Position numbers and translations under genes: made by a program | Part shown: positions 7,887-63,835 of the stretch, piece after piece | How positions within the stretch are numbered: position 1 is the stretch's first letter | Layout: every line of letters starts with the position of its first letter | Notes under the pieces: model-generated | The model's input: only the letters and a program-made list of their open reading frames with translations | Database searches by the model: none | What the model was told of the DNA's origin: nothing | Assembly: GCA_026415415.1 (NCBI GenBank) | Contig: JAOAHE010000005.1 | Location: 1 to 64,000 of the forward strand | Source: Thermodesulfovibrionales bacterium | GTDB taxonomy: Bacteria; Nitrospirota; Thermodesulfovibrionia; Thermodesulfovibrionales; Dissulfurispiraceae | Direction of reading: 5' to 3' | Length of the DNA: 64,000 nt

Positions 7887-9230
7887 CTACTGAACCTTTG
7901 ATCTTAAAAATACTGGTATACCATTTGCTTCTCTTGGCCCTACAGTTACCTTCCAACCAGGGAGTTTTTCTTCAATAGAGCCGCTTAAAATTGCAACATA
8001 TCCTGGGATAATAAGCTCTCTATGACTAATCTCATTTTCTATACCACTTTCTTTTATAAACTGAGCGATCTTAGATGCGGTGAACTTACCAGCTGCCCAA
8101 GAAGTTAACACAGACAAACCTTCTGTATCCATAACAGCAAGTCTGCAAGGTACTTTGCTATTCTCAACTTCACCTAAAACTATGAAGTAAGTAAGAGAGA
8201 AATTGGTAGTGATAAGAAGAGGTGATTCAGGCTTTGGTTCGCCAATTTTGTAAATCTTTTGCTCCACTTGCATTGGGACTTGAGGATCTGTATAAATATT
8301 TTGTCTAAGAGCAAAAAGAGCTAAATTCTTCCATTTCTCTATATTACTTAATACAATTATTGAAGAATACTTGGTTACTCCTAATGAAGCCATTAAAGCC
8401 TCAAGCATAGGGTTGTCTCTTTGCATAAAATTAATAACTGGATAACCAAGCGGTTTAAAAGATTTCTTAGTAGCCGCTCTTCTGATTTGAGTGTTGTCTT
8501 CTATTATCTCTTTTGCTCTTCTTGCACCAGAATCAATTACCATGTCTTCAACGCCTAACCCTTTAATCTTTTCCGTAAGAGCTGAAAGTGCCTCTAATCC
8601 CTTTGCATATACACCCAAAGTGACCTTGTATTTTTTTGCTATGTTAGCCATTTCTTCTGCATTAGAGTCATTGGCTCCATATAAAATCGGTTTTTTATCT
8701 GCTACAACTTTTATACCTGCTTCAGCAGCTACTGGGTCAGTTGTTGAGAGAATGAGAGGTATATCTGGTGCTTTAGCTGAAATAGCTTTCACTACAGCCT
8801 CAAACTTTGCAGCATCCTTAGAAGTATTTTCAACAAAGATTGCATCTATTCTCAGTTTTTGTCCTACTCTTTCTACTTCAGAGTCCAATACTGCGCTAAC
8901 TTTACTACTTATATCGTCATCTGTTTCAGTATCTTTAATCTCAAGAGCAAAGGCTGGAGGGTTAAGGAATTTTTTGTCATGCCTGAATAGAACAGTTTCC
9001 TCACCCATCTTCACCGCTTTATCACCAACTCCAAGAACGATAGGTCTAATAGGTGGTGCTGCTGCTTCACCTAAGATTTTTTTTGCTTCTTCTGATACAT
9101 CAGGGCATGCATCGATTGATACCTGTCTTTGTGCCAGTTTCATAGCAAAGGCAAGACAAGTGGGATGCCCACATTTCTTACAATTTGTTTTTGGAAGCAT
9201 TTTGAAAATTTCTACACCTGATAAAGCCAT
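7887..9230 (-). CDS. acsC: Corrinoid/iron-sulfur protein large subunit
   Basis: A 447-residue gamma subunit of the corrinoid iron-sulfur protein, which carries the methyl group from methyl-tetrahydrofolate to AcsB. Cys17, Cys20, Cys25 and Cys42 form the N-terminal [4Fe-4S] site used for reductive activation of the cobalt. A TIM-barrel domain and a C-terminal cobalamin-binding domain follow. It starts 11 bases after acsD, in the acsE-D-C order. The same four-Cys N-terminal pattern recurs in the DUF3786 protein at 22969-23748. Confidence 0.95.
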   Translation of the reverse strand: MALSGVEIFKMLPKTNCKKCGHPTCLAFAMKLAQRQVSIDACPDVSEEAKKILGEAAAPPIRPIVLGVGDKAVKMGEETVLFRHDKKFLNPPAFALEIKDTETDDDISSKVSAVLDSEVERVGQKLRIDAIFVENTSKDAAKFEAVVKAISAKAPDIPLILSTTDPVAAEAGIKVVADKKPILYGANDSNAEEMANIAKKYKVTLGVYAKGLEALSALTEKIKGLGVEDMVIDSGARRAKEIIEDNTQIRRAATKKSFKPLGYPVINFMQRDNPMLEALMASLGVTKYSSIIVLSNIEKWKNLALFALRQNIYTDPQVPMQVEQKIYKIGEPKPESPLLITTNFSLTYFIVLGEVENSKVPCRLAVMDTEGLSVLTSWAAGKFTASKIAQFIKESGIENEISHRELIIPGYVAILSGSIEEKLPGWKVTVGPREANGIPVFLRSKVQ

Positions 9231-9241
9231 CTCACCCTCCG

Positions 9242-10180
9242 TTACATTAACTCATCTATTAATTTTTCTAAAGCTTCTACTGCCTTAGGATGTCTCATTA
9301 TAAGAAGCTCAGCACCTGCAAACATAAAAGCAGCTGCCGTTACAGCTTCCCAAGCGATCGCCCTTTCTTCAAGGGAACCCCACTTTGGTAAATCAGACTC
9401 AGAAGCTTGAGTCTCTTTAGTCTTCCATACATAAAAACCTACATCACCAAGCAAAGGTTGTTGCATAGTTGTATCATTTTGCATTAACGCAGCAAGCCTA
9501 ATTCTTTCCATAACTGAATAAGTATAATCCAAACCATAACCAAGAGCAGAACACATAGGGTCAGTTATTAATCTCTCTTTATCAAAACCCATCTGAGTTA
9601 TAAGGATATTAAGCTGCTTTGAGAGATTTATATCAAGGTCTGACATAGCGATTAACTTATGATTATTTGCCATCGCTGCGGCAACAATAGTTTTGTAATT
9701 TGCCTCTTGTGCTTTACCGATAATGCAGTTTTTGTCCTTAGCGGCTTCAGCTACTGCTGCTAAAACTGATGCATCTTTATCAGCATTATTACTACCAAGA
9801 ATGATCATAGGCAAATTAACTGCGGCAAGCACATCTTTTACTGTTTTTGCTGCATCCTCTGGGGATGTATTTAACCTGTCAGGATGAGTACCTAAGAGTC
9901 TAAGGGCTATTGCTTTAGCGCCAAGCTTTTCTTGGCAATATTTTGCCCAGGTAACTGGGTTATCTGACACCCCTTCATATACTTTTTTAATAGTGTCAGG
10001 CCAATCATCGGGTGGTATATCCTGAATCTCGTAAGCTATTAATGGCCTATTCTTCATAGTGCCATCAAATGAAAGAAAAGGCAGCATAGTTTCTCCACCG
10101 AAGTTTATTACTTTATCGGTCCCTATGCTGACTTCGTAAACTTTACCTGAATAAGTTTCCTTTGGGACAACGAAAGACAT
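9242..10180 (-). CDS. acsD: Corrinoid/iron-sulfur protein small subunit
   Basis: A 312-residue TIM-barrel delta subunit of the corrinoid iron-sulfur protein. Family regions such as LGTHPDR, ILGSNNADKD and the conserved DPMCSALGYGLDYTYSVMER stretch are clear, and length is as expected. It lies between acsE and acsC, tightly spaced with acsC. It forms the heterodimer that binds the corrinoid and docks the AcsE methyltransferase. Confidence 0.95.
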   Translation of the reverse strand: MSFVVPKETYSGKVYEVSIGTDKVINFGGETMLPFLSFDGTMKNRPLIAYEIQDIPPDDWPDTIKKVYEGVSDNPVTWAKYCQEKLGAKAIALRLLGTHPDRLNTSPEDAAKTVKDVLAAVNLPMIILGSNNADKDASVLAAVAEAAKDKNCIIGKAQEANYKTIVAAAMANNHKLIAMSDLDINLSKQLNILITQMGFDKERLITDPMCSALGYGLDYTYSVMERIRLAALMQNDTTMQQPLLGDVGFYVWKTKETQASESDLPKWGSLEERAIAWEAVTAAAFMFAGAELLIMRHPKAVEALEKLIDELM

Positions 10181-10246
10181 CTTATTATTCCTCCTCTTTG
10201 AATATCTGCATTAATCTATATTTTATGAAACCAAAACACATTATTG

Positions 10247-11029
10247 CTACATCTCTAAATAAGAATGAGCATAGAGAGTCTTATTCATAATTATATCCAA
10301 AGTTTTTGCAACAGGTGTAATCTCGTGGGGATCAACTATAGCAGCTGTTAGCCCCTCATATGCTAATAAAGCAAAATAGTAGCAGTTAATAATTGGTCTT
10401 AAATGTTTTGGACATCCATTAGAAATATTACTTAACCCAACAACAGTCTTCATTGGGGGATCATTTAATTCTTGAAACATTTTTATTGCCTTTATTACCT
10501 TTAATGCATGATCTTGAGATGTAGCAATCTGTAAAACGAGGGGATCAAGATATAAATCTTCTAAGGGTAACCCATATTCCATAGCTCTTGCCATAATTTC
10601 AGAAGCTATAGCAGCTCTTTCTTCTGCATCTGCAGGCAAACCACCCTTTCCTACAGTGAGCCCGATTAATTGAGCATTATATTTTACAGCTATTTCCATG
10701 ATAGGAAATCTCTCAGGGTCATTGGAAGTTGAATTTATAAGAGGTCTACCCCATTGATTATTATGGACTTTTAACCCCGCTTCAATAGCTTTTGCATTGG
10801 TAGTATCAAGACAAATAGGTAAAGGAACTACCTCTTGAATAGTTGTGACCATCCACTCCATTAACTCCTCACCATGGTCTTCAGCAGGTCCAATATTAGC
10901 ATCTATCATATTGGCACCTTCTTTCATCTGTCTGATAGCTATCTCTTGGATTGGCCCTTTGTCCTTTTTCATCATAGCCTCCCTAACCCTTTTGGCTATG
11001 ATACTTAACTTCTCACCTATAATTAACAT
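10247..11029 (-). CDS. acsE: Methyltetrahydrofolate:corrinoid/iron-sulfur protein methyltransferase
   Basis: A pterin-binding TIM-barrel enzyme of about 260 residues that moves the methyl group from methyl-H4folate to AcsCD. The DANIGPAED, CLDTTNAKAIEAGL, NSTSNDPERFP and GLSNIS motifs of the AcsE/MetH pterin-binding family are present. An upstream ATG at 11071 is possible, but AAAGGAGG sits 6 bases before the ATG at 11029, which also starts the conserved MLIIGEKLS, so that start is chosen. It is the first gene of the minus-strand acs run, with a roughly 400-base AT-rich gap before divergent dnaE. Confidence 0.95.
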   Translation of the reverse strand: MLIIGEKLSIIAKRVREAMMKKDKGPIQEIAIRQMKEGANMIDANIGPAEDHGEELMEWMVTTIQEVVPLPICLDTTNAKAIEAGLKVHNNQWGRPLINSTSNDPERFPIMEIAVKYNAQLIGLTVGKGGLPADAEERAAIASEIMARAMEYGLPLEDLYLDPLVLQIATSQDHALKVIKAIKMFQELNDPPMKTVVGLSNISNGCPKHLRPIINCYYFALLAYEGLTAAIVDPHEITPVAKTLDIIMNKTLYAHSYLEM

Positions 11030-11435
11030 TTCTTCCTCCTTTCTTGGAAATAATGTATTTTCATAATACAAAGTAGCTTTCAGTAATTTTTAATCCTTTA
11101 AAAGTAACACAAATTAAAAATCAAGTAAAGAAATAAATTTATTATATTATTTAATAAATCTATAAGACTTTCTGAAAACTGTAATTTATCGCTAAAATAT
11201 AGTATTACCAATAATTTTTTAAAAATTTTAAGTCATAATTAAGAAAGCTAAAACTAAATTATTGCCTTCACCTGCATCAAACTCTAAAAGTATCTTTTGT
11301 CTTTAATAAACCTTCCATTACTTTTTGTGAGGTCAAATCAAAGATTTTGGAGTCAAACAAATAAGAGTTGCTTATTTTATCAGTTTTATTCAAATTAAAT
11401 TGACTAAAAACCCTTTCCATAGTTAATATTTTCAT
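11030..11435. other. Divergent intergenic region acsE/dnaE
   Basis: About 400 bases of very AT-rich sequence between the acs operon and dnaE. Apart from the dnaE promoter at the right end, no gene or conserved structure was recognised. The acsE promoter must lie here but could not be placed with confidence. Confidence 0.7.
11400..11429 (+). promoter_or_regulatory. Sigma70-like promoter of dnaE, leaderless arrangement
   Basis: TTGACT (11400-11405), an 18-base spacer and TAATAT (11424-11429). Only six bases separate the -10 box from the dnaE ATG, so transcription would start at or next to the start codon. No SD site is present, which agrees with a leaderless message. Confidence 0.6.
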
Positions 11436-17852: not shown

Positions 17853-18053
17853 CTACTCTAATTTATCAATTGCCTTTTTGAACAAAAAGTTGAGTTTTTT
17901 TGTCTCACTATAGAGTTGTAAAAGTATATCTGCTAATTCCTTTTTACCCAAAGAAGAAGCTTTCTCTGACCACTCTTTATAAGTATCAGCATGTTCGTCA
18001 TTGTGCTCCATCCAGTGATGGAGAAGTTTGTTTAACTTAGCTAACTCGTTCAT
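17853..18053 (-). CDS. Small His/Glu-rich protein at the end of the Ni/Co transporter operon
   Basis: A 66-residue helical protein with a HHWMEHNDEHADTYKEW segment (His at 11, 12, 16, 20) that looks suited to metal binding. It overlaps cbiO by 4 bases (ATGA), so it is translated with the transporter. Similar short EHNDEH proteins are known beside cobalt/nickel transporter and corrinoid genes and are annotated as uncharacterised. A role in handling imported Ni or Co is a guess from context. Confidence 0.75.
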   Translation of the reverse strand: MNELAKLNKLLHHWMEHNDEHADTYKEWSEKASSLGKKELADILLQLYSETKKLNFLFKKAIDKLE

Positions 18054-18718
18054 AATATCTCCTTAAGTTTAATTTGTCCATCATTAATTGTGTATATCTT
18101 CTTTACTGAATTCCTTAAAAAATCATAATCATGGGATATAACTATATAAGAATCATAATAACCAGTAAGATGTTTTAAGATCATCTCTGTTCTCTGCTCA
18201 TCTAAACCTGCTGTTGGTTCATCAAGCAAAAGGCATTCAGGCTGCATTGATACAACTGTAGCAAATGCTACAAGTTTTTTTTCCCCACCAGATAACTTAT
18301 AAGTTACTTTATTCATCATACCATCAAGCCCTAACTTATTACCTATCTCTTCTAAAAGAGTTTTTATCTCTTGAGGCTTTTTTCCTAAATTTAAAGGTCC
18401 AAAAGCTATATCCTCTTCAACAGTAGGGCAAAAGAGCTGATCATCAGAGTCTTGAAATAAAAGCCCTATTTTTTTTCTAACCTCAAAAAAGTCTGCTTCT
18501 TCCTGCCTCTTTTTGCCTAATATGTATAGTTCTCCTGCTATAGGTTTTATTAATCCCATTATAATATGAAAAAGAGTTGATTTACCTGTCCCGTTTGAAC
18601 CTATTATACCGACTTTATCTCCCCTTTTAAGAGAAAAATTCAATCCCTTAAATAAAATCTTTCTATTGTCATATGAGAAACTCATATTTACAATCTCAAT
18701 AATATTTTCTTGATCCAT
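18050..18718 (-). CDS. cbiO: ECF-type nickel/cobalt transporter ATPase
   Basis: A 222-residue ABC ATPase. Walker A (GSNGTGKST, about residues 38-46), Q-loop (GLLFQDSDDQLFCPTV), signature (LSGGE), Walker B (CLLLDEP) and the switch His (VISHDYDF) are all intact. The FQDSDDQLF Q-loop is typical of CbiO/NikO. Its ATG overlaps the cbiQ stop (TAATG), forming a tight operon. It drives cation import through CbiQ and CbiM. Metal choice (Ni or Co) cannot be read from this subunit. Confidence 0.93.
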   Translation of the reverse strand: MDQENIIEIVNMSFSYDNRKILFKGLNFSLKRGDKVGIIGSNGTGKSTLFHIIMGLIKPIAGELYILGKKRQEEADFFEVRKKIGLLFQDSDDQLFCPTVEEDIAFGPLNLGKKPQEIKTLLEEIGNKLGLDGMMNKVTYKLSGGEKKLVAFATVVSMQPECLLLDEPTAGLDEQRTEMILKHLTGYYDSYIVISHDYDFLRNSVKKIYTINDGQIKLKEIL

Positions 18719-19479
18719 TAAAAAACCAACGTATTATCAAAGATAATCAATGAGAATAAAAAAACAAATACAACAAACAAACCCACAGTGACATCCTTAA
18801 TTGATAAATCAAAATGATATAAAATAGGAAAGTCGTTTTTAAACCCTCTGCAAAGCATTGCTTTGTAAATTCTTTGAGACCTCTCAAAACTCCTTATAAT
18901 TAGCATACCTACAAGATAAGCATAAGTTTTATAAGTGTGAAAATCTGTTTTTGGCTGAAAACATCTAAGAGATATAGCTCTTCTAATCTTAAGATATTCA
19001 TCGTGCATTACATATATATATCTATAAAAAAAGAAAAACAAAAGGACAAGTTTCTTAGGTATTTTTAAGTGGATTAGAGCATGAGCTAAAGAAAAAACCT
19101 CAGAAGTTCCTAACATCACTATAGTTAACAAAACTAATGTATTAGCCTTGAGAGTTATCAATAGAGCTTGAAGAAACCCTTCTTTGGTTGCTTCAATATT
19201 GCCAACTTTAAAAAGAGTTACACCGTCAGCACTGAAAGGCAAAAAAAGCCATAGGAAAAATATAAATACGTTTACTGCTAATAACCTTTTTGATAACTTT
19301 TTAAGATCCAGTTTAGCTAAAAAAACTAAGATAATAGAGACAAACAAAGCAAAAGATAAACCTTCTAAGGTATTCATAAAAACAATAATAAAGGCAGAAA
19401 AGAAAACAGTTAAGGATTTTACTCGGGGATCAAGTCTATGAAACAGGGAATTGCCTTCCGCAAACTCTTCCAGATGCAC
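18718..19479 (-). CDS. cbiQ: ECF-type nickel/cobalt transporter transmembrane subunit
   Basis: A 253-residue membrane protein of the CbiQ/NikQ (EcfT) family with several hydrophobic segments in the first 130 residues. The two coupling motifs that touch the ATPase are visible as RRAISLRCF and SQRIYKAMLCRGF (the A-R-G-like signatures). The N-terminus NSLFHRLDPRVK is the family hallmark. It lies between the NikL-like accessory protein and cbiO, overlapping cbiO by one base. Confidence 0.93.
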   Translation of the reverse strand: MHLEEFAEGNSLFHRLDPRVKSLTVFFSAFIIVFMNTLEGLSFALFVSIILVFLAKLDLKKLSKRLLAVNVFIFFLWLFLPFSADGVTLFKVGNIEATKEGFLQALLITLKANTLVLLTIVMLGTSEVFSLAHALIHLKIPKKLVLLFFFFYRYIYVMHDEYLKIRRAISLRCFQPKTDFHTYKTYAYLVGMLIIRSFERSQRIYKAMLCRGFKNDFPILYHFDLSIKDVTVGLFVVFVFLFSLIIFDNTLVF

Positions 19480-19493
19480 TTTAAATATTCACC

Positions 19494-20111
19494 TTAGGAC
19501 TTCTTGCTTTTAAAGTAAAGAACAAGTCCCATTACACCAAAAATATAACCGATACCACCAATTATCTGCAGGATACTTGCTTTCCTTATATCTTCATGAA
19601 GCATAGCGATCTGATCTGTTAATGGTTGTATCTTTTTATCTAAGGCTTGATTGATCAAAAACTCAATATCGCTTTGTTTTAAACATTGACTCTTTTCTTT
19701 TTGTGATAAAGAAAGGTCTAATAAAGCGTCCTTAGATAATTCATCCTTTATTTTATTCTTAAGACTATCTTTTTTTGGGTGATCTTTCAATGTTAATAGG
19801 TAAGAACTTTGATGTCCTGCACCTCCTTTAAGTATTATCTTTATAGCATAGGCATCTGGTTTCTGAAAGGAAAACATGCCATTTTCGTCTGTCTTGCCTT
19901 CAGCAATAAATTTATTGGTTGTACTATCATAGATTACTACATCACAACCTTTACACTTAGAGCCATCAGCAAAATAACCTTCAGTGTGTACCACCTCTCC
20001 ATAACTGTAAGCATAAACATTTACCTTATGAGCTTTAGCAGGGAAAGGAGAAATAAAAAGAAAAATAATGATTAGTACATAAATCATCTTATCAAATCCC
20101 ACTTGTATCAT
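19494..20111 (-). CDS. NikL-like accessory protein of the Ni/Co importer
   Basis: A 205-residue membrane-anchored periplasmic protein with a signal-like N-terminal helix ending around PAKA, and a beta-sandwich domain (about 28-110) with YSYGEVVHTEGYF, a CKGCD pair and a TDENGMFSF segment as in carboxypeptidase-regulatory-like folds. A charged helical stretch and a C-terminal transmembrane helix (about 183-200) follow. It takes the place of CbiN between cbiM and cbiQ, as NikL does in NikKMLQO systems, which hints at nickel. Met9 is an alternative start. The SD GGGAGG is separated from the ATG at 20111 by a perfect hairpin, an unusual arrangement. Confidence 0.75.
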   Translation of the reverse strand: MIQVGFDKMIYVLIIIFLFISPFPAKAHKVNVYAYSYGEVVHTEGYFADGSKCKGCDVVIYDSTTNKFIAEGKTDENGMFSFQKPDAYAIKIILKGGAGHQSSYLLTLKDHPKKDSLKNKIKDELSKDALLDLSLSQKEKSQCLKQSDIEFLINQALDKKIQPLTDQIAMLHEDIRKASILQIIGGIGYIFGVMGLVLYFKSKKS

Positions 20112-20136
20112 TTAGTTGACAAGTTTGTCAACTAAA
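20111..20136 (-). promoter_or_regulatory. Perfect 12-bp hairpin between SD site and start codon
   Basis: TTTAGTTGACAA (20111-20122), 2-nt loop, TTGTCAACTAAA (20125-20136). The stem runs from just after the GGGAGG SD (20139-20144) into the A of the ATG. Folding would bring a distant SD next to the start codon; alternatively the palindrome is a protein-binding or processing site. Confidence 0.65.
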
Positions 20137-20144
20137 AACCTCCC

Positions 20145-20741
20145 TTAGGCTGATATTAACTCAGGCTTAACCTTTTTTAAAAATACAACACAGAGAGCAG
20201 TTATTATACCTTCAACGATCATCACTGGTATATGAGATAAAATGACCACCTTGACAATACTCATAAATTCTTCTCCAGTCCCAAGAAGTGAAAGCCCCAT
20301 AATGATGCCAGCTATAGCGACAGCAAAAAATCCTGCAAGAAAACCAGCAAAAGTCGCTATCCTTCCACTTTTTCGTATGAGATAGCCAAAAAGATAGTAA
20401 ACAATTACTGCAGGTAAAGACATAATTAAGGTGTTTATTCCAAGGGTTGTAAGACCTCCAAATTGAAAAAGGATTGCTTGTAAAAATAAAGCCACTAAGA
20501 TTGAAGGGAATGCCATCCATCCAAGTAAGATACCAACTAAGCCATTTAAAATTAAATGGGTGCTAACAGGACCTATAGGAATATGAATTAAAGATGCAAC
20601 AAAAAAAGCTGACGACATAACAGCTACCTCAGGTATCTTACTGTAGTCCATCTTTCTGAGTCCGACAGCAACACCACCTGCACTCAATAGTGTACCTGAT
20701 ATTAAAATTATAGGTGAAAGAACACCCTCTGAGATATGCAT
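20145..20741 (-). CDS. cbiM: ECF-type nickel/cobalt transporter substrate-binding membrane subunit
   Basis: A 198-residue membrane protein of the CbiM/NikM family. It begins [10 protein letters not shown], keeping the N-terminal Met-His pair that coordinates the metal ion in this family, and the conserved second histidine lies in FVASLIHIPIGPVSTHLILNG. About five or six transmembrane helices follow. The start overlaps the upstream gene (TAATG). Sequence alone cannot decide between nickel and cobalt; the neighbouring NikK- and NikL-like genes and the presence of nickel-dependent CODH/ACS favour nickel. Confidence 0.93.
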   Translation of the reverse strand: MHISEGVLSPIILISGTLLSAGGVAVGLRKMDYSKIPEVAVMSSAFFVASLIHIPIGPVSTHLILNGLVGILLGWMAFPSILVALFLQAILFQFGGLTTLGINTLIMSLPAVIVYYLFGYLIRKSGRIATFAGFLAGFFAVAIAGIIMGLSLLGTGEEFMSIVKVVILSHIPVMIVEGIITALCVVFLKKVKPELISA

Positions 20742-29703: not shown

Positions 29704-30882
29704 TTATACACTGAAAACTATGGCTCCATCATAAGAGACTAAGTTACAAATTACAGGTATATCTTTTGTTATTGTTTGGCAGTAATCTTTAGCTTTTATA
29801 CAAACTATTGCAAATACCTCGTTAGGGTCTTTTCTGTGCTGATTGATAAACTCAAAGATCTCCCTTGCAGAATTAAACTTTTTATTAGAGAGTAACACTC
29901 CATTAGCCTTTAAAAATTGAACAGCCCTATCTAAGTCTATAGCACCAAATTTCACATGCGTTTGAGGTATTGACTGAGAGATTTTCAGCATTTTAGCCCA
30001 TTGTGTGCAAAGATGAATTTTTTGAAAGTTATGTTTTTTAGCCTCACGTAATGAAAACTCAATAAAATCACCCATCATTACATAACACTCTTGCGGAAAA
30101 TTAAACAATCTCATATGAGCCTTCTCTGAAGTTCTACCAGAAGAAAGGACTATTTCCTTGTGGCCTGAAGCCGCGGCCATATTCATAGATGTCTCTATAG
30201 TAGCTGTCCATGCCTCAGCAGAAAGAGGCTTAACAATACCTGTTGTTCCAAGTATAGAGATACCCCCGATTATGCCTAATCTTGGATTTAAAGTCTTAAG
30301 AGCAAGTTTTTCACCATCTGTAACTGAAATAGTTACCTCAAGGTTCTTTAGTCTAAAATTAGTATTATTATTTAAAATAGCTTCTATAATTGCATCTTTA
30401 ATCATCTTTTGAGGAACTGGATTTATAGCAGGCGACCCTACAGGAACCGGTAGCCCTGGCTTTGTAACTATCCCAACCCCTTTGCCTCCTCGTAACTCGA
30501 TAGATGGTATAGATGATTCATCTTTAATATAAGACTGGGCAAAATTTATAATAAGATCAGCTTTTTTAAGCTTTACAGTAGTTTGAATCTCAGCTTTATT
30601 AGTCACATCGGGATCATCACCAGCAAATTTTATTACTGATGCTGTTGCATAAAAACTATTTTCATCTTCCTTGAAATCACTTCTATGTATACTGAAAACA
30701 GCTCGCTCACCAATAGGCAAAAGTATATCGACAGGGTTAATTTCTTTAGTAGAGGACAAATATTGATATTCAGTCGTAGAGTAAATAGTTTTTAAACTAT
30801 TCATCAATATAAGGGTAGCAGCTTTTGAGCTTGCAGATGCACAGGCACCAGTTGTAAATCCAGAACGAAGTCTTCTCCGCAT
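29704..30882 (-). CDS. cbiD: Cobalt-precorrin-5B C1-methyltransferase
   Basis: A 392-residue CbiD, which methylates C1 of the corrin ring in the anaerobic, early-cobalt-insertion route. The N-terminal RSGFTTGACASASSKAA and the GKGVGIVTKPGLPVPVGSPAINPVP stretch are diagnostic, as is the GIIGGISILGTTGIV loop. Length is typical. Its ATG overlaps the cobO stop (TAATG). The other corrin-ring genes are elsewhere. Presence of this enzyme indicates de novo corrinoid synthesis, which the CODH/ACS system requires. Confidence 0.95.
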   Translation of the reverse strand: MRRRLRSGFTTGACASASSKAATLILMNSLKTIYSTTEYQYLSSTKEINPVDILLPIGERAVFSIHRSDFKEDENSFYATASVIKFAGDDPDVTNKAEIQTTVKLKKADLIINFAQSYIKDESSIPSIELRGGKGVGIVTKPGLPVPVGSPAINPVPQKMIKDAIIEAILNNNTNFRLKNLEVTISVTDGEKLALKTLNPRLGIIGGISILGTTGIVKPLSAEAWTATIETSMNMAAASGHKEIVLSSGRTSEKAHMRLFNFPQECYVMMGDFIEFSLREAKKHNFQKIHLCTQWAKMLKISQSIPQTHVKFGAIDLDRAVQFLKANGVLLSNKKFNSAREIFEFINQHRKDPNEVFAIVCIKAKDYCQTITKDIPVICNLVSYDGAIVFSV

Positions 30883-31409
30883 TAATGTTCTATACCTTTG
30901 CGTGCCTTAACACCTTTATGAAAATAATGCTTGACTTCTTGCATCTCTGTAACAAGATCAGCTTTATCTATAACTTTCTCATGAGCATATCTACCAGTTA
31001 ACACTAATTCTACATTTTCTGGTTTAGAATTAAGTAATTCCAAAATTTCCTCCACAGTGATTAACCCTTTATAGACAGCAATATTTATCTCATCAAGTAT
31101 GAATATATCATACTTTTTTTTCTTAAGAAGCTCTTTTACAAATATAAGACCTCTTTTAGCAGCTCTTGTTGCTTCGGGTATATCTTCTTCTTTTTTAACA
31201 AACCCTGTACCAAACTGCTTTATCTCTATTAAATCTTTAAATCTCTCAAGGGCTTTATGTTCACTTGTCTTACCTTTCTTTATAAACTGTGCAATAAAAA
31301 CATTATGTCCTGCACCTGCAGCTCTTAAAGCTAACCCTAAAGCTGCTGTGGTTTTGCCCTTGCTATTTCCAGTATAAACTTGAATATAACCCTTTCTCTT
31401 TAAAGCCAC
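30882..31409 (-). CDS. cobO: Corrinoid adenosyltransferase (CobO/CobA type)
   Basis: A roughly 175-residue ATP:corrinoid adenosyltransferase. The P-loop GNSKGKTTAALGLALRAAG lies near the N-terminus, with FILDEINIAVYKG (Walker B) and LVLTGRYAHEKVIDKADLVTEM further on. Most CobO proteins begin directly with KGYIQVYTG. A GTG at 31409 with GGGAGG four bases upstream is preferred to a TTG at 31433 that lacks an SD. It adenosylates the corrinoid made by the cbi pathway and sits directly before cbiD. Confidence 0.93.
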   Translation of the reverse strand: MALKRKGYIQVYTGNSKGKTTAALGLALRAAGAGHNVFIAQFIKKGKTSEHKALERFKDLIEIKQFGTGFVKKEEDIPEATRAAKRGLIFVKELLKKKKYDIFILDEINIAVYKGLITVEEILELLNSKPENVELVLTGRYAHEKVIDKADLVTEMQEVKHYFHKGVKARKGIEH

Positions 31410-31480
31410 CTTCCCTCCCTTTTTACCCAACAAAGTTATGAGAACTTGTTAATATCATCAACTTTCAAGGATTAAATTAT

Positions 31481-56840: not shown

Positions 56841-57722
56841 ATGAGAATAATAAATAAATTTAGCTCAATACTTTTATTCATAATTCTTTTTCCCCTTCTT
56901 TCATGCGCCCCAAAAGAAGCTATTAAGCATCAACCTCCTACACCAAAAATTGCTCTTGTTTTAGGTGCTGGTGCATCTAAGGGATTTGCCCATATAGGGG
57001 TGCTTAAAGTATTAGAAAGTAATCAAATACCTATTAATATGATTGTAGGTACCAGTGCTGGAAGTTTTGTAGGAAGTCTATATGCATATGGATATAACGC
57101 TTTTCAACTTCAAAAAATGGCTCTTAGCATAGAAAAGAAAGACCTAATAGATCTTACTATCCCAGATAACGGTTTTATAAAAGGAGAATTATTAGAGAAC
57201 TACATTAACTCTATGATAATGAACATCCCTTTTGAAAAGTTAAAAATACCCTTTTATGCTGTAGCGACCAATATTGAAAATGGTAAAGAGATAATTTTTG
57301 GCAGTGGAAATGTTGGAATGGCTGTAAGAGCAAGCTGCGCTGTCCCAGGTATATTTAGACCTGTAACTATCTCTGGAAAAACTTATATAGATGGAGGAGT
57401 AATAAGTCCAGTGCCTGTTAGTGCAGCTAAAAGAATGGGAGCAAATATTGTAATAGCTGTAGACATATCTGGTCAGATAAGCAATCCAAAACCTGAAAAC
57501 ACAATAGAGACTATTTTAAACGCAATAAATATAATGTATGCAGAAATCTCAGAAAAACAAATAAAAGACGCAGATATTGTAATTAAACCAAAAGTAGAAA
57601 GTATCAGTTCTACTGATTTTTCAAAAAGACACGAAGCAATCTTAGAAGGTGAGAAAGCTGCCCTTGAGGCACTTCCAAAAATAAAAGCCCTTTTTCAAAG
57701 CCTTAATATAAATAAGATTTAA
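56841..57722 (+). CDS. Patatin-like phospholipase lipoprotein
   Basis: A 293-residue lipoprotein (lipobox LLSC, Cys22). The oxyanion loop GAGASKGFAHIG (about 42-53), nucleophile Ser72 in GTSAG and the Asp of DGG near residue 192 form the Ser-Asp dyad of patatin/RssA-like enzymes. Position at the inner face of the outer membrane suggests phospholipid turnover or lipid remodelling. No SD site is visible. It is the last intact gene before the decayed corrinoid-uptake cluster. Confidence 0.9.
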   Translation: MRIINKFSSILLFIILFPLLSCAPKEAIKHQPPTPKIALVLGAGASKGFAHIGVLKVLESNQIPINMIVGTSAGSFVGSLYAYGYNAFQLQKMALSIEKKDLIDLTIPDNGFIKGELLENYINSMIMNIPFEKLKIPFYAVATNIENGKEIIFGSGNVGMAVRASCAVPGIFRPVTISGKTYIDGGVISPVPVSAAKRMGANIVIAVDISGQISNPKPENTIETILNAINIMYAEISEKQIKDADIVIKPKVESISSTDFSKRHEAILEGEKAALEALPKIKALFQSLNINKI

Positions 57723-58077
57723 AGTTATAACAAACTAAAGGCTACATAAATTACGAATATAACAAGATTTTCTAATAATTAAAATGTAAATCTTTTATTA
57801 TATCTATCACATTTGCAAGAGACAGATAAAAATAGTGCATAGTGCTGCTTTAAGACTATTTTTTCATTATATTGATATATCATTTATTTATACTTAATGG
57901 GCAGGCTGGCGTCTTTTATTTAAAAAAGATTTTTCCATCAAATAATATCTTTAAGTAATTTTCGTTCTATCCCGACCCAAAGTCATGAAGGAATATAACT
58001 CATCTTAAAACAAATAATAAATTAATAAAGATTTAAGATTAATAACTGTTTTAGAAAGCTATTTAAGGCTATAATCA
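57723..58077 (+). other. Intergenic region upstream of the decayed btuB-like gene, with a possible riboswitch relic
   Basis: About 355 bases. GGGCAGGCTGGCGTC (57899-57913), a CTTTT...AAAAAG stem and AAAGTCATGAAGGAAT (57979-57994) vaguely recall the outer parts of a cobalamin riboswitch, but the conserved core boxes are absent. If real, it is as worn as the genes it would have controlled. Very uncertain. Confidence 0.2.
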
Positions 58078-60007
58078 TAGAAAAGTTCTGCCATTTTGTA
58101 TTTTTACTGTTGACTCCGAGCATACTCAAAAACTGATAATTTAGAAGAAATAGTTGTCAATACTACAAGATATGAAGGGATTTTAACTCATGTTCCAGCC
58201 CATATAACAATCATTTCTGAAGAAGACATAAAAAAATCTATAGCCCGCGATATAACTGATCTACTTAGAAATCTAACAGGGACTTATGTACCAGATATTA
58301 CTGAAAATAGAAACTCTATTTCAGGATATAAGATGTTTCGGTGAAGGATGTCCTTTTAACACCTTAATGCTTGTGGATGGAAAACGAACTAACCAAGCTG
58401 ACTTAAACGGAGTTAATTTGACACAAATCACCCTTGAGAGAGGAAAAAGGATTGAGATAATAAGAGGCGCCATGTCCTCTGTGCTTTCTAGGGACAACGC
58501 TATAGGAGGTGTAAAAATATAGTAACCAAGGAATCTGATATCTCTTTAATAGGCTTAGGTTTTTCCTTAGGTAGCTATGATACTATTAAAACTACTATTT
58601 ATACTATCATTGCAATAAACAAACTAAACCTTTTTGTAACAATTAATACCTTAAAATGAATAGACTACAGAGACAATAGCGAAACAGACTCAAAAGATCT
58701 CGGATTAACCCTCAATTACTATCTGAAAGAATCTCTTAGGTTTAATTTAAGTGTAGGATACCAAAAAGATGACACAGGTTGTCAGATGAGCTCAAAGAAA
58801 GTGGCCTTGCAGCTGGTCTACCACGGACAGCTACGAAAAGACCTAATGACTTTATAAATACAGCAGATTATTACATAAATTTTTCATCCGAGTTACATTT
58901 TGCAAAGGATAACCTTTTCAAAATAGATTTTTCCCTTAGAAAAAGGACTTTTCTTTCCTTTTCATCAGGTGACTAGGGAAGCTTTACAGGAAACAGAATA
59001 TTAAAACATCATCTATGTCCCCTTCAGTCTCATTAAAGAACAAAATTGGTAACTTAAAAAATATCCTAATCATAGGGTTTGATTATTACTAAATTGATAA
59101 TGATATTACCAATATTCCTTGTTTTTTGGCTCCTTTTAAGGGTTATCTTTAACCTTCAAAAGAAAAACTTTGGTTTCTATCTCTACAATGAACTTAGACC
59201 AATAGAAAAACTTTTCTTAAACTTAGGCTATAGATATGACAAAGCAGAATTTAATTTCACCCCTTCTTCATCAAAAGAAGTGTCAACGAACAAAAACTTA
59301 TTTACTTCAGGAATTAACTATACCTTTCTTTATAAATCATACCCCTAACTCAGCACTTATAAAGGTTTAGATATCCTCTCTTTGATGAGTTATATAGCTT
59401 TTCTACAAATACAATAAATACTAACCTTAAGCCCCAATCATCAAACTCCTATGAGTTAGGTGTTAAACACTATAAATCTATTTAGGATAGATACAAAAGA
59501 TGAGATTATCTGCAGTCCCTTTACTTCTAATAATGAAAACCTTGATTGAAAAACAAAAAGACAAGGAATTGAAGCAACCTTTCTCGTTAAACCTACTGAA
59601 TGGTAAACACTTAAAGGAGGCTGTACTTATATTAATCTAACTATAAAAAGTGATACCTTTGCAGATAAAGAAATCCCAAATGTACCAAAAAAACAAAATA
59701 GATCTGGAAGCCTCAGCCTTAGTAAGTAAAGATTTAACTCTATCAGTAAACTGCTTATATTTATATATAGGAAAAAGGACTTTTGTAAATGATTTCTCAA
59801 ATGACTACGATAAACAAAAAAGCTTTTTTGTTGTTAACTCAAAAATTAAATATCAATGGAAAAAGATTCAGCTCTATTTTGATATAAAATAACATCTTCA
59901 ATAAAGAATACTCTGAATATGGGGTTATAATTAGTTTTACTCTTGAGAAATCTTTCTATCCATCACCTAAGAGAATTTTTCTTTTTGGGATGAATTTGGA
60001 GCTTTAA
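58078..60007 (+). pseudogene. btuB: Decayed TonB-dependent outer-membrane receptor (BtuB-like)
   Basis: Reading across frames recovers a full receptor: signal-like segment, TonB-box/plug start (DNLEEIVVNTTRYEG), plug (DIRCFGEGCPFNTLMLVDGKR, IEIIRGAMSSVLSRDNAIGG, then IVTKES in another frame), several barrel strands and a terminal NIFNKEYSEYGV ... FGMNLEL with stop at 60005. At least three frame changes and several in-frame stops are visible, for example TGA at 58657 and at 59547 and TAG at 58974 (each readable as former Trp) and TAA at 59604. The plug and its place beside a BtuF/C/D-like set point to corrinoid uptake, though related siderophore receptors are not excluded. It cannot make a working receptor. 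Confidence 0.9.
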
Positions 60008-60016
60008 AACTTTAAA

Positions 60017-60830
60017 ATGAAAAAATCTTTTTATTAATTTTAATCTCTCTAATTCTTTCAAGGTATACAGAGGCTAACCTCCCCGAAAAAATCATATCCT
60101 TAGTGCCTAATATAACCGAGATACTCATGCTCTTGAAGTTGGAGATAAAGTAGTAGGTGTCACCTCTTTTTGTGACTATCTTCCAGAAGCCAGGAAAAAG
60201 AAAAAAGTAGGAGGGATGTCAAATCCTTTCTTTGAAGCAATCTTAATGCTAAAGCCTGATATTGTCATTATAACAGAAGATGGCAATGAAAAGGCTTTTG
60301 AAGAAAAGCTTAGAAACAAAAAGATTAAAACTTATCTATTCAGAGCTCGTCAGCTTAAAGACTTACCTCAAGAAATTAAAAGACTTTGAGGGATACTTGG
60401 TGTAGAGGAGAAAGCTAACATCATCGTGGAGAACATTAATAACTCCTTAGAAAAGATGCTTAAAAAGACGATAAAATCAGAAAACAAAAAAGTTTTATTT
60501 ATTATATGGCCTGAACCTTTAATTGTTGTTAGTAAACAAACAAATATTGATGACTCATTGACTCTCTTAGGCTTAAACAATTTCGCTCATGAGTCTACAA
60601 TAAGATATCCTCAATACTCCATAGAAGAAGTCCTAAGAAAAAATCCTGATATTATTTTCATTGGACAAGGTCATAAGTATATGAAAGCTGTCTCTGATAA
60701 ACTTTTCAATAAGCTAAAAAGGGTCAACACAGTTAAAATAGGGCAGGTTTATTTTATAAGTGACAATCTCTATCGTTTAGGACCAAGAGTTATTGAGGTA
60801 TTAAGAGAACTTTCAAAGTACATAAAATGA
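60017..60830 (+). pseudogene. btuF: Decayed corrinoid-type ABC substrate-binding protein (BtuF-like)
   Basis: The signal peptide is in a different frame from the ATG at 60017. A one-base deletion near 60130 splits the SLVPNITEIL and GDKVVGVTSFCDY parts, and a TGA interrupts the middle near 60388 (RL-stop-GILG). The remainder (VGGMSNPFFEAILMLKPDIVII, and a long open C-terminal half to 60830) is well preserved, so decay is recent or partial. The VTSFCDYLPEA pattern is typical of BtuF-like binding proteins. Confidence 0.88.
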
Positions 60831-61738
60831 AACGGCGTATTTTAATTTTAACCATTATTTGCTTTTCTATTTCTATATATTCTCTTTATTTATGTACTGA
60901 GATTATTAACCTCTTCAATATGAATGAGCTGGATAAAGATATACTTTTTAGCGTCGGATTTCCAAGATTTTTAACTGCCTTGCTAATAGGTGTAGCTTCA
61001 GGAGCATCAGGAGCTATCCTGCAAAGCATATTAAGAAATCTTCTTCAGACCCTTACATTCTGGGCATCTCAAGCAGAGCTTCTTTAATGGCAATAGTAGG
61101 GATAATATTTGGAGTTGGCTATATAGGATACCTTTCCAGTCCCCTTACTTATATTTTCTGAAGCTATACTAACTGGCATAGTAGTTAAGTATGATCAGGT
61201 TCCTTCTACATTGGTGATGTTTATCCTTAGCATCTCAACTAATGAAGGGCTAAGAAGAGCCATATTATGGATGCTTGGTGAACTATCAATGGCCGATTGA
61301 CATAACATCCCATATGGATTTTTGTTTATACTTCTTGGATTCGTCCTTGCCTTGAGCAGAACAAAAGCCTTAAATGCCCTTATGGTTGAAGATGAGCTTG
61401 CCTGGAGTTTTAGGTTTTAATTACTCAAAAGAAAGGCTAATTTTATTTGCCCAAGTCTGCTTGATGGTAGCAGCCTCAGTTAGCTAAAGGGGGACTATAG
61501 GTTTTATTGGTTTATTGGTTTACTAATGCCTCACATAGTTAGAATGACTATAGGTTCTTATAACAGACTACTTATCCCCCTTTCTTCTGTAATAGGAGCT
61601 GCCCTTTTATGCCTGGCTGACTTCTTAGGTAGGGTCCTATTCTCACCAATGGAGCTTCCCGCTGGGATTATCACAGCATTACTTGTAGCTCCTTATTTTC
61701 TCTATCTCCTTAAGAAAAAGGATGTATTAGGTGGTTAG
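60827..61738 (+). pseudogene. btuC: Decayed FecCD/BtuC-family ABC permease
   Basis: The FecCD start (VGFPRFLTALLIGVASGASGAILQSILRN) is intact, then a frameshift near 61050 moves DPYILGISSRASLMAIVG to another frame. More stops and shifts follow (a TGA near 61160, another after ELSMAD, and TAA after WSFRF). The last part (GLLMPHIVRMTIGSYNRLLIPLSSVIGAALL) is again readable. It overlaps the BtuF relic by 4 bases as in an intact operon. Confidence 0.88.
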
Positions 61739-61741
61739 TTT

Positions 61742-62503
61742 ATGCAAAATAATATAATGCCTCTTCAGTTACTAAAAGTCTCATTCTCATACAATACCTC
61801 ACCATTCATAAATCAACTAAATCTAAGCGTAAACAATGGTGAGTTTATATATCAAATAGGACCTAACGGCTCAGGAAAATCAACCTCATTAAAAATAGCA
61901 GCTGATATGTTAACACCAGTCCGGCAATATCTTACTCCAAGGAAAAAACAAATCAATACAAAGGCAAAAATAGAGCAAAACTTATAAGTTATCTGCCTCA
62001 AATGCTTGACCTATCTATCCCTTTAAAAGTGAAAGAGATAGTGCAAATGGGATATTATCCCTACGATCTCTCACCTCAATTGGACATGGAGAAATCCTTA
62101 GAAATCGTCGGACTCTTAGATAAAAAAGATTTACAAATTAACCAACTAAGTAGCGGTGAAGTCAGAAAAGCATTTATAGCCATGACTCTTGTTCAAGGGG
62201 CGGGAATATTACTTCTTGATGAACCCCTTGTAAATCTTGATATTAAATATTAAATAGAGATAGTTAGGTTACTTAAGGAGATAGTCAAAGAAAGAGAGAT
62301 TTCAGTGCTGATGGCTGTTCATGATTTAAACTTAGCTCTACAATTTGATAGAGTATTGTTACTGAAAATTGGCAATATAATTGGAGACGGTACTCCTCAG
62401 GAGACATTAGATATTAAATGATAGCAACCTTCTTTTAGCCTCTGATATTGAAATAAAAGTGCTTCACTATATAGATGGTAAATCATTCATCAGATATGGA
62501 TAA
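61742..62503 (+). pseudogene. btuD: Decayed ABC ATPase (BtuD-like)
   Basis: Walker A (GPNGSGKST), the signature (LSSGE) and Walker B (ILLLDEP) survive, but a frameshift near 61940 separates the Walker A part from the LISYLPQMLDLSIPLKVKEIV part, and stops follow (TAA after NLDIKY; TGA-TAG after TLDIK). The shifted end reads IEIKVLHYIDGKSFIRYG with a stop at 62501, one base before the convergent ffh stop. The ATPase cannot be made in full. Confidence 0.88.
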
Positions 62504-63835
62504 TCAAAAAGGCAGGATATCCGGCAGTCTAAAACCTTTTTTTGCTCCTCCTTTTTTAAGCATCTTCATCATCTTCTTCATCTCAAGATACTGTTTGATA
62601 AGTCTATTGACATCTGCGACAGATGTGCCACTTCCCATAGCTATTCTTTTCCGTCTACTACCATTAATGATGTTATGATTTGTTCTTTCAAGAGGAGTCA
62701 TAGAATTGATTATAGCCTCAATCTTTACAAACTCCTTCTCATCAACCTTTACATCTTTTAATGCCTTGTTCATTCCTGGAATCATACTAATTAAGTTTTC
62801 AAGAGGACCCATTTTTCTTATTTTTCTTAATTGTTCCCTTAAATCTTCAAAAGTAAAAGCATCCTCTAAAACAGATTTTCTAAGCTTTTCCGCTTCTTTT
62901 TGGTCAAAAGCTTGTTGAGCTTGTTCGATTAAAGTAAGGACATCTCCCATTCCAAGGATTCTTTTAGCAATCCTGTCAGGATGAAAAGGCTCAAGCATAT
63001 CTATCTTTTCACCTGTGCCGATAAACTTTATAGGCTTACCTGTCACGCTCCTGATAGACAAAGCAGCACCACCTCTTGCATCGCCGTCCATTTTGGTAAG
63101 AATGATGCCACTTATAGTCAACTGCTCATTAAAGCTTTTCGCCATAGTAACAGCATCTTGACCCGTCATAGCATCAGCAACAAGAAGAATCTCTTTTGGG
63201 TTAACCTTATTCTTAATGTCTTGAAGCTGATCCATTAGCTCAGTGTCTATATGAAGTCTACCGGCTGTATCAATTATAACAATATCTCTACCTTCTAATT
63301 TTGACCTCTTTATGGCATCCTCGCATAAAGCAGATGGGTTTTTTATTTCTTTTGAAAAATGAACTGGTATATCAAGCTGCTTACCTAAGGTTATAAGTTG
63401 ATCAATGGCTGCAGGCCTTTGAAGATCAGCAGCCACAAGTAATGGTCTTCTTCCCTCTTTCTTAAAAATCCTTGCAAGCTTTGCAGATGTAGTTGTTTTA
63501 CCTGAACCATGAAGTCCGATCATCATTATAATTGTTGGAGGGTTAGGTGATAGCTGAATTCTTTCATTAGTATCGCCTAAAAGATGACATAACTCATCAA
63601 AAACTATCTTTATAACCTGTTGCCCCGGCGAGAGACTCTCTAATACTTCCTTTCCAATAGCTTTCTCTCTTATATTGCTAATGAAGTCTTTTACTACTTT
63701 AAAATTAACATCAGCCTCAAGAAGAGCCATTCTTATTTCTTTAAGAGCAATATCAACATCTTCCTCCTTGAGGATACCTTTACCTTTGAGTTTTTTAAAA
63801 ATATTATCAAGCTTTTCAGCCAAACTCTCAAACAT
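62504..63835 (-). CDS. ffh: Signal recognition particle protein Ffh
   Basis: A 443-residue SRP GTPase that targets membrane proteins to the Sec translocon. N domain, G motifs (GLHGSGKTTTSAKL, DTAGRLH, TKMDGDARGG) and the C-terminal M domain rich in Met and basic residues (SMIPGMNK, RIAMGSGTSVADVN, MMKMLKKGG) are complete. An AAGGAGA site precedes the ATG. It is convergent with the btuD relic, ending on the adjacent base. The following gene is off the window. Confidence 0.97.
   Translation of the reverse strand: MFESLAEKLDNIFKKLKGKGILKEEDVDIALKEIRMALLEADVNFKVVKDFISNIREKAIGKEVLESLSPGQQVIKIVFDELCHLLGDTNERIQLSPNPPTIIMMIGLHGSGKTTTSAKLARIFKKEGRRPLLVAADLQRPAAIDQLITLGKQLDIPVHFSKEIKNPSALCEDAIKRSKLEGRDIVIIDTAGRLHIDTELMDQLQDIKNKVNPKEILLVADAMTGQDAVTMAKSFNEQLTISGIILTKMDGDARGGAALSIRSVTGKPIKFIGTGEKIDMLEPFHPDRIAKRILGMGDVLTLIEQAQQAFDQKEAEKLRKSVLEDAFTFEDLREQLRKIRKMGPLENLISMIPGMNKALKDVKVDEKEFVKIEAIINSMTPLERTNHNIINGSRRKRIAMGSGTSVADVNRLIKQYLEMKKMMKMLKKGGAKKGFRLPDILPF

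Follow-up and report, generated by a model that had tools for sequence, protein, structure and literature searches.

Decay of a btuBFCD-type operon in a Thermodesulfovibrionales lineage that keeps its genes for corrinoid synthesis

In the 64,000-nucleotide stretch of DNA analyzed here (the window), four adjacent genes encoding a TonB-dependent receptor, a periplasmic binding protein, an ABC permease, and an ABC ATPase are all pseudogenes, and the genome carries an almost complete set of genes for making corrinoids de novo. Very probably, this locus is a riboswitch-controlled btuBFCD operon that decayed in the window lineage after it split from a sister species, with de novo synthesis being kept. 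At the level of gene content, the reading that uptake has been lost and synthesis retained is well supported.

An open reading frame scan of the plus strand between positions 57722 and 62504 gave no frame longer than 134 amino acids, and the only coding gaps of more than 600 bp in the window fall in this interval (57722 to 60456 and 60830 to 62504). Lesions were called by frameshift-aware alignment of the four proteins of an intact operon in a relative of the same genus (G001, the sister genome and the nearest one sequenced) to the window DNA. This alignment resolved a btuB-btuF-btuC-btuD remnant at 58074 to 62500, within a few bases of the 58078 to 62503 assigned in the first-pass annotation, with all four genes in the same order and on the same strand as in the sister set. 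The alignments ran end to end at 57 to 65% amino acid identity and contained a total of 20 frameshifts, 11 in-frame stops, and about 65 lost codons relative to the G001 proteins, spread across all four genes but concentrated in btuB.

The btuB pseudogene, for the TonB-dependent outer membrane receptor (58074 to 60004, plus strand), accounts for 12 frameshifts, 6 in-frame stops, and 45 codons missing compared with the sister; it is 61% identical over 633 aligned codons to G001 BtuB (L025:5835-7907:-), and fragments of the Pfam Plug domain are detected in it. The btuF pseudogene, for the periplasmic corrinoid-binding protein (60019 to 60827, plus strand), has only 1 frameshift and 1 in-frame stop, with 57% identity over 269 codons to G001 BtuF (L025:5022-5834:-). 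The FecCD family ABC permease pseudogene, btuC (60827 to 61735, plus strand), has 4 frameshifts, 2 in-frame stops, and 20 missing codons; identity to G001 BtuC is 65% over 296 codons, and its PF01032 match is interrupted by stops. The ABC ATPase pseudogene, btuD (61754 to 62500, plus strand), has 3 frameshifts and 2 in-frame stops and is 62% identical over 245 codons to G001 BtuD, with a Walker A motif that is still legible and an ABC signature that is changed (LSSGE). The ATGA overlap between btuF and btuC is retained. The frameshifts and in-frame stops first noticed in four adjacent genes were therefore confirmed against an intact set, as were the gene order and overlap of a former operon.

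Both flanking genes, a patatin-like gene upstream (56841 to 57722) and ffh downstream (62504 to 63835, minus strand), are open, in agreement with their initial description as clean, and so are all 11 genes used as controls in the comparison with G001. An alternative genetic code or programmed reading was ruled out, since TAA, TAG, and TGA are all present and mixed with frameshifts, and the flanks use the standard code. The initial impression that many of the stops were former tryptophan codons did not hold: only 2 of the 11 stops, TAG at 58974 and TGA at 61298, lie at tryptophan codons of the sister.

When 60 relatives were searched with the decayed stretch, a strong match came from a single genome, G001 (contig C202, locus L025), which belongs to the same genus. 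Comparison of the locus in related genomes, proposed at the outset as a check, thus recovered all four genes intact and colinear with the remnant, encoding a TonB receptor of 690 amino acids, a binding protein of 270, a permease of 320, and an ATPase of 248. G001 btuB is directly preceded by a cobalamin riboswitch (RF00174; L025:7960-8288:-), and RF00174 is also found upstream of the TonB receptor gene in homologous loci of four other relatives (L026, L027, L028, and L029). Several homologous loci in relatives also hold cobU, cobT, cobS, and cobC, often adjoining the importer. In the window, the former 5′ leader (57723 to 58073, plus strand) occupies the position of the sister's riboswitch, and no match to RF00174 was detected there at the gathering threshold or at an E value of ≤5. 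Local alignment of this leader to that of the sister scored no better than alignments of shuffled sequences, with no detectable riboswitch remnant. The only RF00174 site in the window's assembly is upstream of a thiC/bza-cobU cluster, while G001 has both sites.

In a relative-rate test, changes were counted in codons aligned in frame, with relatives that carry intact copies as outgroups. At codon positions 1 and 2 of the operon, 310 changes were unique to the window and 199 to G001 (outgroup G035; the other four outgroups agreed in direction), compared to 132:135 at these positions in cobU, cobT, cobS, and cobC of the two genomes, taken as control genes (the two ratios differ at P = 0.002). 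Codon position 3 was balanced in the operon (239:225). Because the excess at positions 1 and 2 is found on the window lineage only, decay began in that lineage, after its split from G001. The number of stops fits the neutral expectation of about 5 stops per 100 replacement changes, given the replacement excess.

These counts also bear on whether intact genes could look broken through a local error of assembly or sequencing, a concern that the fragmented draft state of the genome would justify. Read error is disfavored because it would not raise changes at positions 1 and 2, on this lineage only, while leaving position 3 balanced. Error would also have to produce 20 indels and 11 stops within one operon with clean flanks, to place most of the frameshifts outside long homopolymers, and to remove the riboswitch as well, which makes it a highly improbable explanation. 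Decay of the operon under relaxed selection restricted to the window lineage is instead well supported by the sequence comparisons.

The substrate of the lost transporter is indicated by genetic context more than by family scores. The components of a BtuBFCD system (TonB receptor, Peripla_BP_2-type protein, FecCD permease, and ABC ATPase) occur together in both genomes, decayed in the window and intact in G001. The best NCBIfam matches of G001 BtuB, BtuF, and BtuC are vitamin B12 families. These three proteins and G001 BtuD all score below the equivalog cutoffs of the B12 families, which are annotation thresholds rather than functional criteria (BtuB, TIGR01779, 153.6 versus 599.7; BtuF, PRK03379, 111 versus 234; BtuC, PRK03784, 237.7 versus 334; and BtuD, PRK03695, 133.8 versus 281). 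Had the operon carried an iron-siderophore or heme, its loss would be uninformative about B12; siderophore and heme importers fall in the same superfamily as all three ABC components, G001 BtuD scores best against a heme ATPase model, and the best PDB match of G001 BtuC is FhuB. The ATPase and permease by themselves would not settle the substrate. There is very little chance that such a substrate was the true one, however, given the cobalamin riboswitch that precedes the locus in the sister and in four relatives, the cobU, cobT, cobS, and cobC neighbors in several relatives, the best family matches of BtuB, BtuF, and BtuC to B12 families, and the vitamin B12-binding protein that is the best PDB match of G001 BtuF. 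We infer that the transporter carried corrinoid and that the pseudogenes derive from a corrinoid-uptake operon, as originally proposed, with the B12 type assigned mainly by the riboswitch and the gene neighborhood.

Genes that make or use corrinoid are intact elsewhere in the window, all on the minus strand. These include cbiD (29704 to 30882; TIGR00312, 327 bits, cutoff 200), the corrinoid adenosyltransferase gene cobO/btuR (30882 to 31433; TIGR00708, 181.6 bits, cutoff 167.75), and genes for a CbiM/CbiQ/CbiO-type cobalt/nickel importer (18050 to 20741; CbiM, 266 bits, cutoff 173; CbiQ, 153 bits, cutoff 112; the ATPase was named by sequence only). NCBIfam matches also identified acsC, acsD, and acsE (7887 to 11071), encoding the corrinoid iron-sulfur protein subunits and methyltransferase, and since these are intact, the cell still needs corrinoid. 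All of these genes had been reported as intact from the first reading. In scans against named genomes, the acetyl-CoA synthase subunit put the window among MAGs of uncultured, Thermodesulfovibrio-like Nitrospirota, with identities reaching about 80%, and CbiD gave no match.

Across the genome, five contigs hold an almost complete anaerobic cbi/cob set in which each step looked for was found except cbiJ. Behind the riboswitch on C52 are a thiC/bza-like gene, cobU, cobT, cobS, cobC, cbiP, cbiB, cobD, cbiA, a cbiX-cbiC fusion, and cbiMNQO; C70 carries cbiF, cbiL, and cbiE-T; C26 carries a cbiG-cbiH fusion; C107 carries cobA-hemD; and the window adds cbiD and cobO. Names for cbiF, cbiL, cbiE-T, cobC, and cobA-hemD draw on sequence and gene order in addition to a general Pfam match. 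The cbiG-cbiH and cbiX-cbiC fusions of the window genome lie at L056:7960-9756 and L061:15678-16685 (compare L065:7545-9409), and cbiG and cbiH are separate, adjacent genes in the sister.

CbiJ was not recognized in the window's genome and is absent from all 31 genomes of the family. It was dropped as a marker of pathway completeness, being uninformative when missing throughout the family, and the suggested search for a complete cbi/cob set thus ended with a gap at this one, family-wide position. Because CbiJ is missing in all 31 genomes, its step is probably performed by an unrelated enzyme, and the corrin pathway would then work without a recognizable CbiJ. The family-wide gap makes genes conserved in the cbi cluster worth attention. 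For example, a gene of 260 amino acids, HD-domain-like by eye, lies between cbiF and cbiL in both genomes (L054:4325-5107 on C70 of the window's genome and L064:8706-9488 in G001), with no NCBIfam match at 1e-20.

A second importer would weaken the argument that salvage has been lost, and the window's assembly (a draft of 118 contigs, 92.6% complete) was searched family by family. For FecCD permeases, this search of the 92.6% complete assembly returned only the pseudogene and a weak match in a zinc-type ABC-3 (ZnuB-type) permease; the recommended search for another BtuBFCD therefore found no second FecCD/BtuC permease, and one could sit in the missing part of the draft. The operon might also have been redundant, with corrinoid now carried by another intact importer. 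Three other TonB receptors, on C52, C76, and C90, are intact, the one on C52 is accompanied by a Peripla_BP_2-type binding protein, and B12 importers outside the FecCD family exist, such as Rv1819c in mycobacteria (PMC12713380). However, the C52 pair has no FecCD permease, no cobalamin riboswitch was found upstream of any of the three receptors, and the few PDB matches of the C52 receptor are heme, metallophore, and siderophore receptors rather than BtuB. Salvage by way of such a replacement is thus very unlikely, and we infer that no unrelated importer has taken the place of the decayed transporter.

Two other receptor loci were observed in these genomes. In G001, contig C252 (L068:1-3708) encodes a TonB receptor, a binding protein, and a FecCD permease in that order. 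At the end of C52 in the window's genome (L060:6363-9685), the receptor and binding protein are kept and an old-yellow-enzyme-like gene lies 18 bp downstream, an arrangement suggesting that this second importer may likewise have lost its permease. At a contig end on C90 (L058:1-3029), a TonB receptor gene adjoins what by eye is the start of a CobN-like chelatase gene, which resembles heme-uptake loci with HmuS.

In a wider survey, 176 genomes of the order were searched with sister BtuC. Orthologues formed a clade at 51 to 63% identity (about 60 genomes), and other FecCD permeases reached at most 42% in full-length matches. In-frame stops occur in just one BtuC match among the 176 genomes, that of the window. 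Separately, one BtuC orthologue (G135:C52:8416-9355) runs across two neighboring reading frames, reflecting either another copy in decay or an error in sequencing. FecCD as such was dropped as a marker of B12 uptake, having no association with CbiD within the family (Fisher P = 0.71). Identity to BtuC is only 36 to 41% for most FecCD copies of the family, and import counts were accordingly redone with the orthologue clade (at least 51% identity).

By these counts, an intact BtuC orthologue is present in 3 of 31 genomes of the window's family (G001, G008, and G021), and CbiD is present in 20, of which 17, including the window's, have no intact BtuC orthologue. Among the 60 relatives (window's genome included), CbiD is found in 31, 26 of them without an intact BtuC orthologue; 5 genomes have both, 26 synthesis only, 12 import only, and 17 neither (Fisher P = 0.045, ignoring kinship). 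Restricted to the other families of the order (29 genomes), the same test gave P = 0.021, also ignoring kinship, and the window's family alone showed no avoidance between synthesis and the BtuC orthologue. Synthesis without this importer is therefore the commonest state here, contrary to the first-pass annotation, which had presented it as a reversal of the usual trend. The rest of that proposal, that salvage was lost and de novo synthesis is relied upon, is favored by the pseudogenes, by the lack of a second FecCD/BtuC permease in the assembly, and by a pathway lacking only cbiJ. According to published surveys, about half of B12-using bacteria synthesize B12 and most nonproducers carry BtuFCD homologs (PMC2667541), and importers are abundant even among producers (PMC6461909); on neither count would a producer that lacks an importer be anomalous.

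Taken together, the data suggest a model in which de novo corrinoid synthesis and a btuBFCD import operon under riboswitch control were both present in the ancestor shared by the window species and its sister. Following their divergence, the operon would have been inactivated in the window lineage and left to neutral drift, with its riboswitch leader eroded past recognition. Corrinoid for the Wood-Ljungdahl pathway (acsCDE) would now presumably come from the anaerobic cbi/cob pathway, with cobalt brought in by CbiMNQO-type importers. The loss was probably driven by relaxed selection (a steady supply of the cell's own corrinoid, or little of it outside) and not by positive selection. A broader proposal is that corrinoid import and synthesis are alternative states that replace each other repeatedly in the order, with the window lineage caught midway from both to synthesis only; we consider this possible but doubtful.

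The process itself is already known, and the case is unusual only in that the loss is caught in progress. No view is overturned, because producers without a detected BtuC orthologue are common in these relatives. Attention usually falls on B12 auxotrophs, in which synthesis is gone and import remains. The window lineage shows the converse, decay of a whole import operon, and the intact copy in the sister gives direction and relative age for one transition. Across the 60 relatives, genomes with either import or synthesis tend to lack the other, and the clade can therefore be used to ask when producers drop salvage. A search of the literature turned up no report of a riboswitch-controlled transporter in decay.

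Compared with BtuBFCD of the Escherichia coli type (Zhang et al. 2009, PMC2667541), the operon has the same gene set in the order receptor, binding protein, permease, and ATPase, and it is alike in the cobalamin riboswitch upstream in the sister and in the best family matches of BtuB, BtuF, and BtuC. It differs in that every gene in the window is inactivated and that even the intact sister proteins score below the NCBI equivalog cutoffs. A parallel exists in Mycobacterium tuberculosis, whose cobamide genes are eroding (PMC12713380): there too, the cofactor is still required, and of the two ways to obtain it, synthesis and acquisition, one decays. In M. tuberculosis, however, synthesis erodes and acquisition is kept, the opposite of what is seen in the window lineage.
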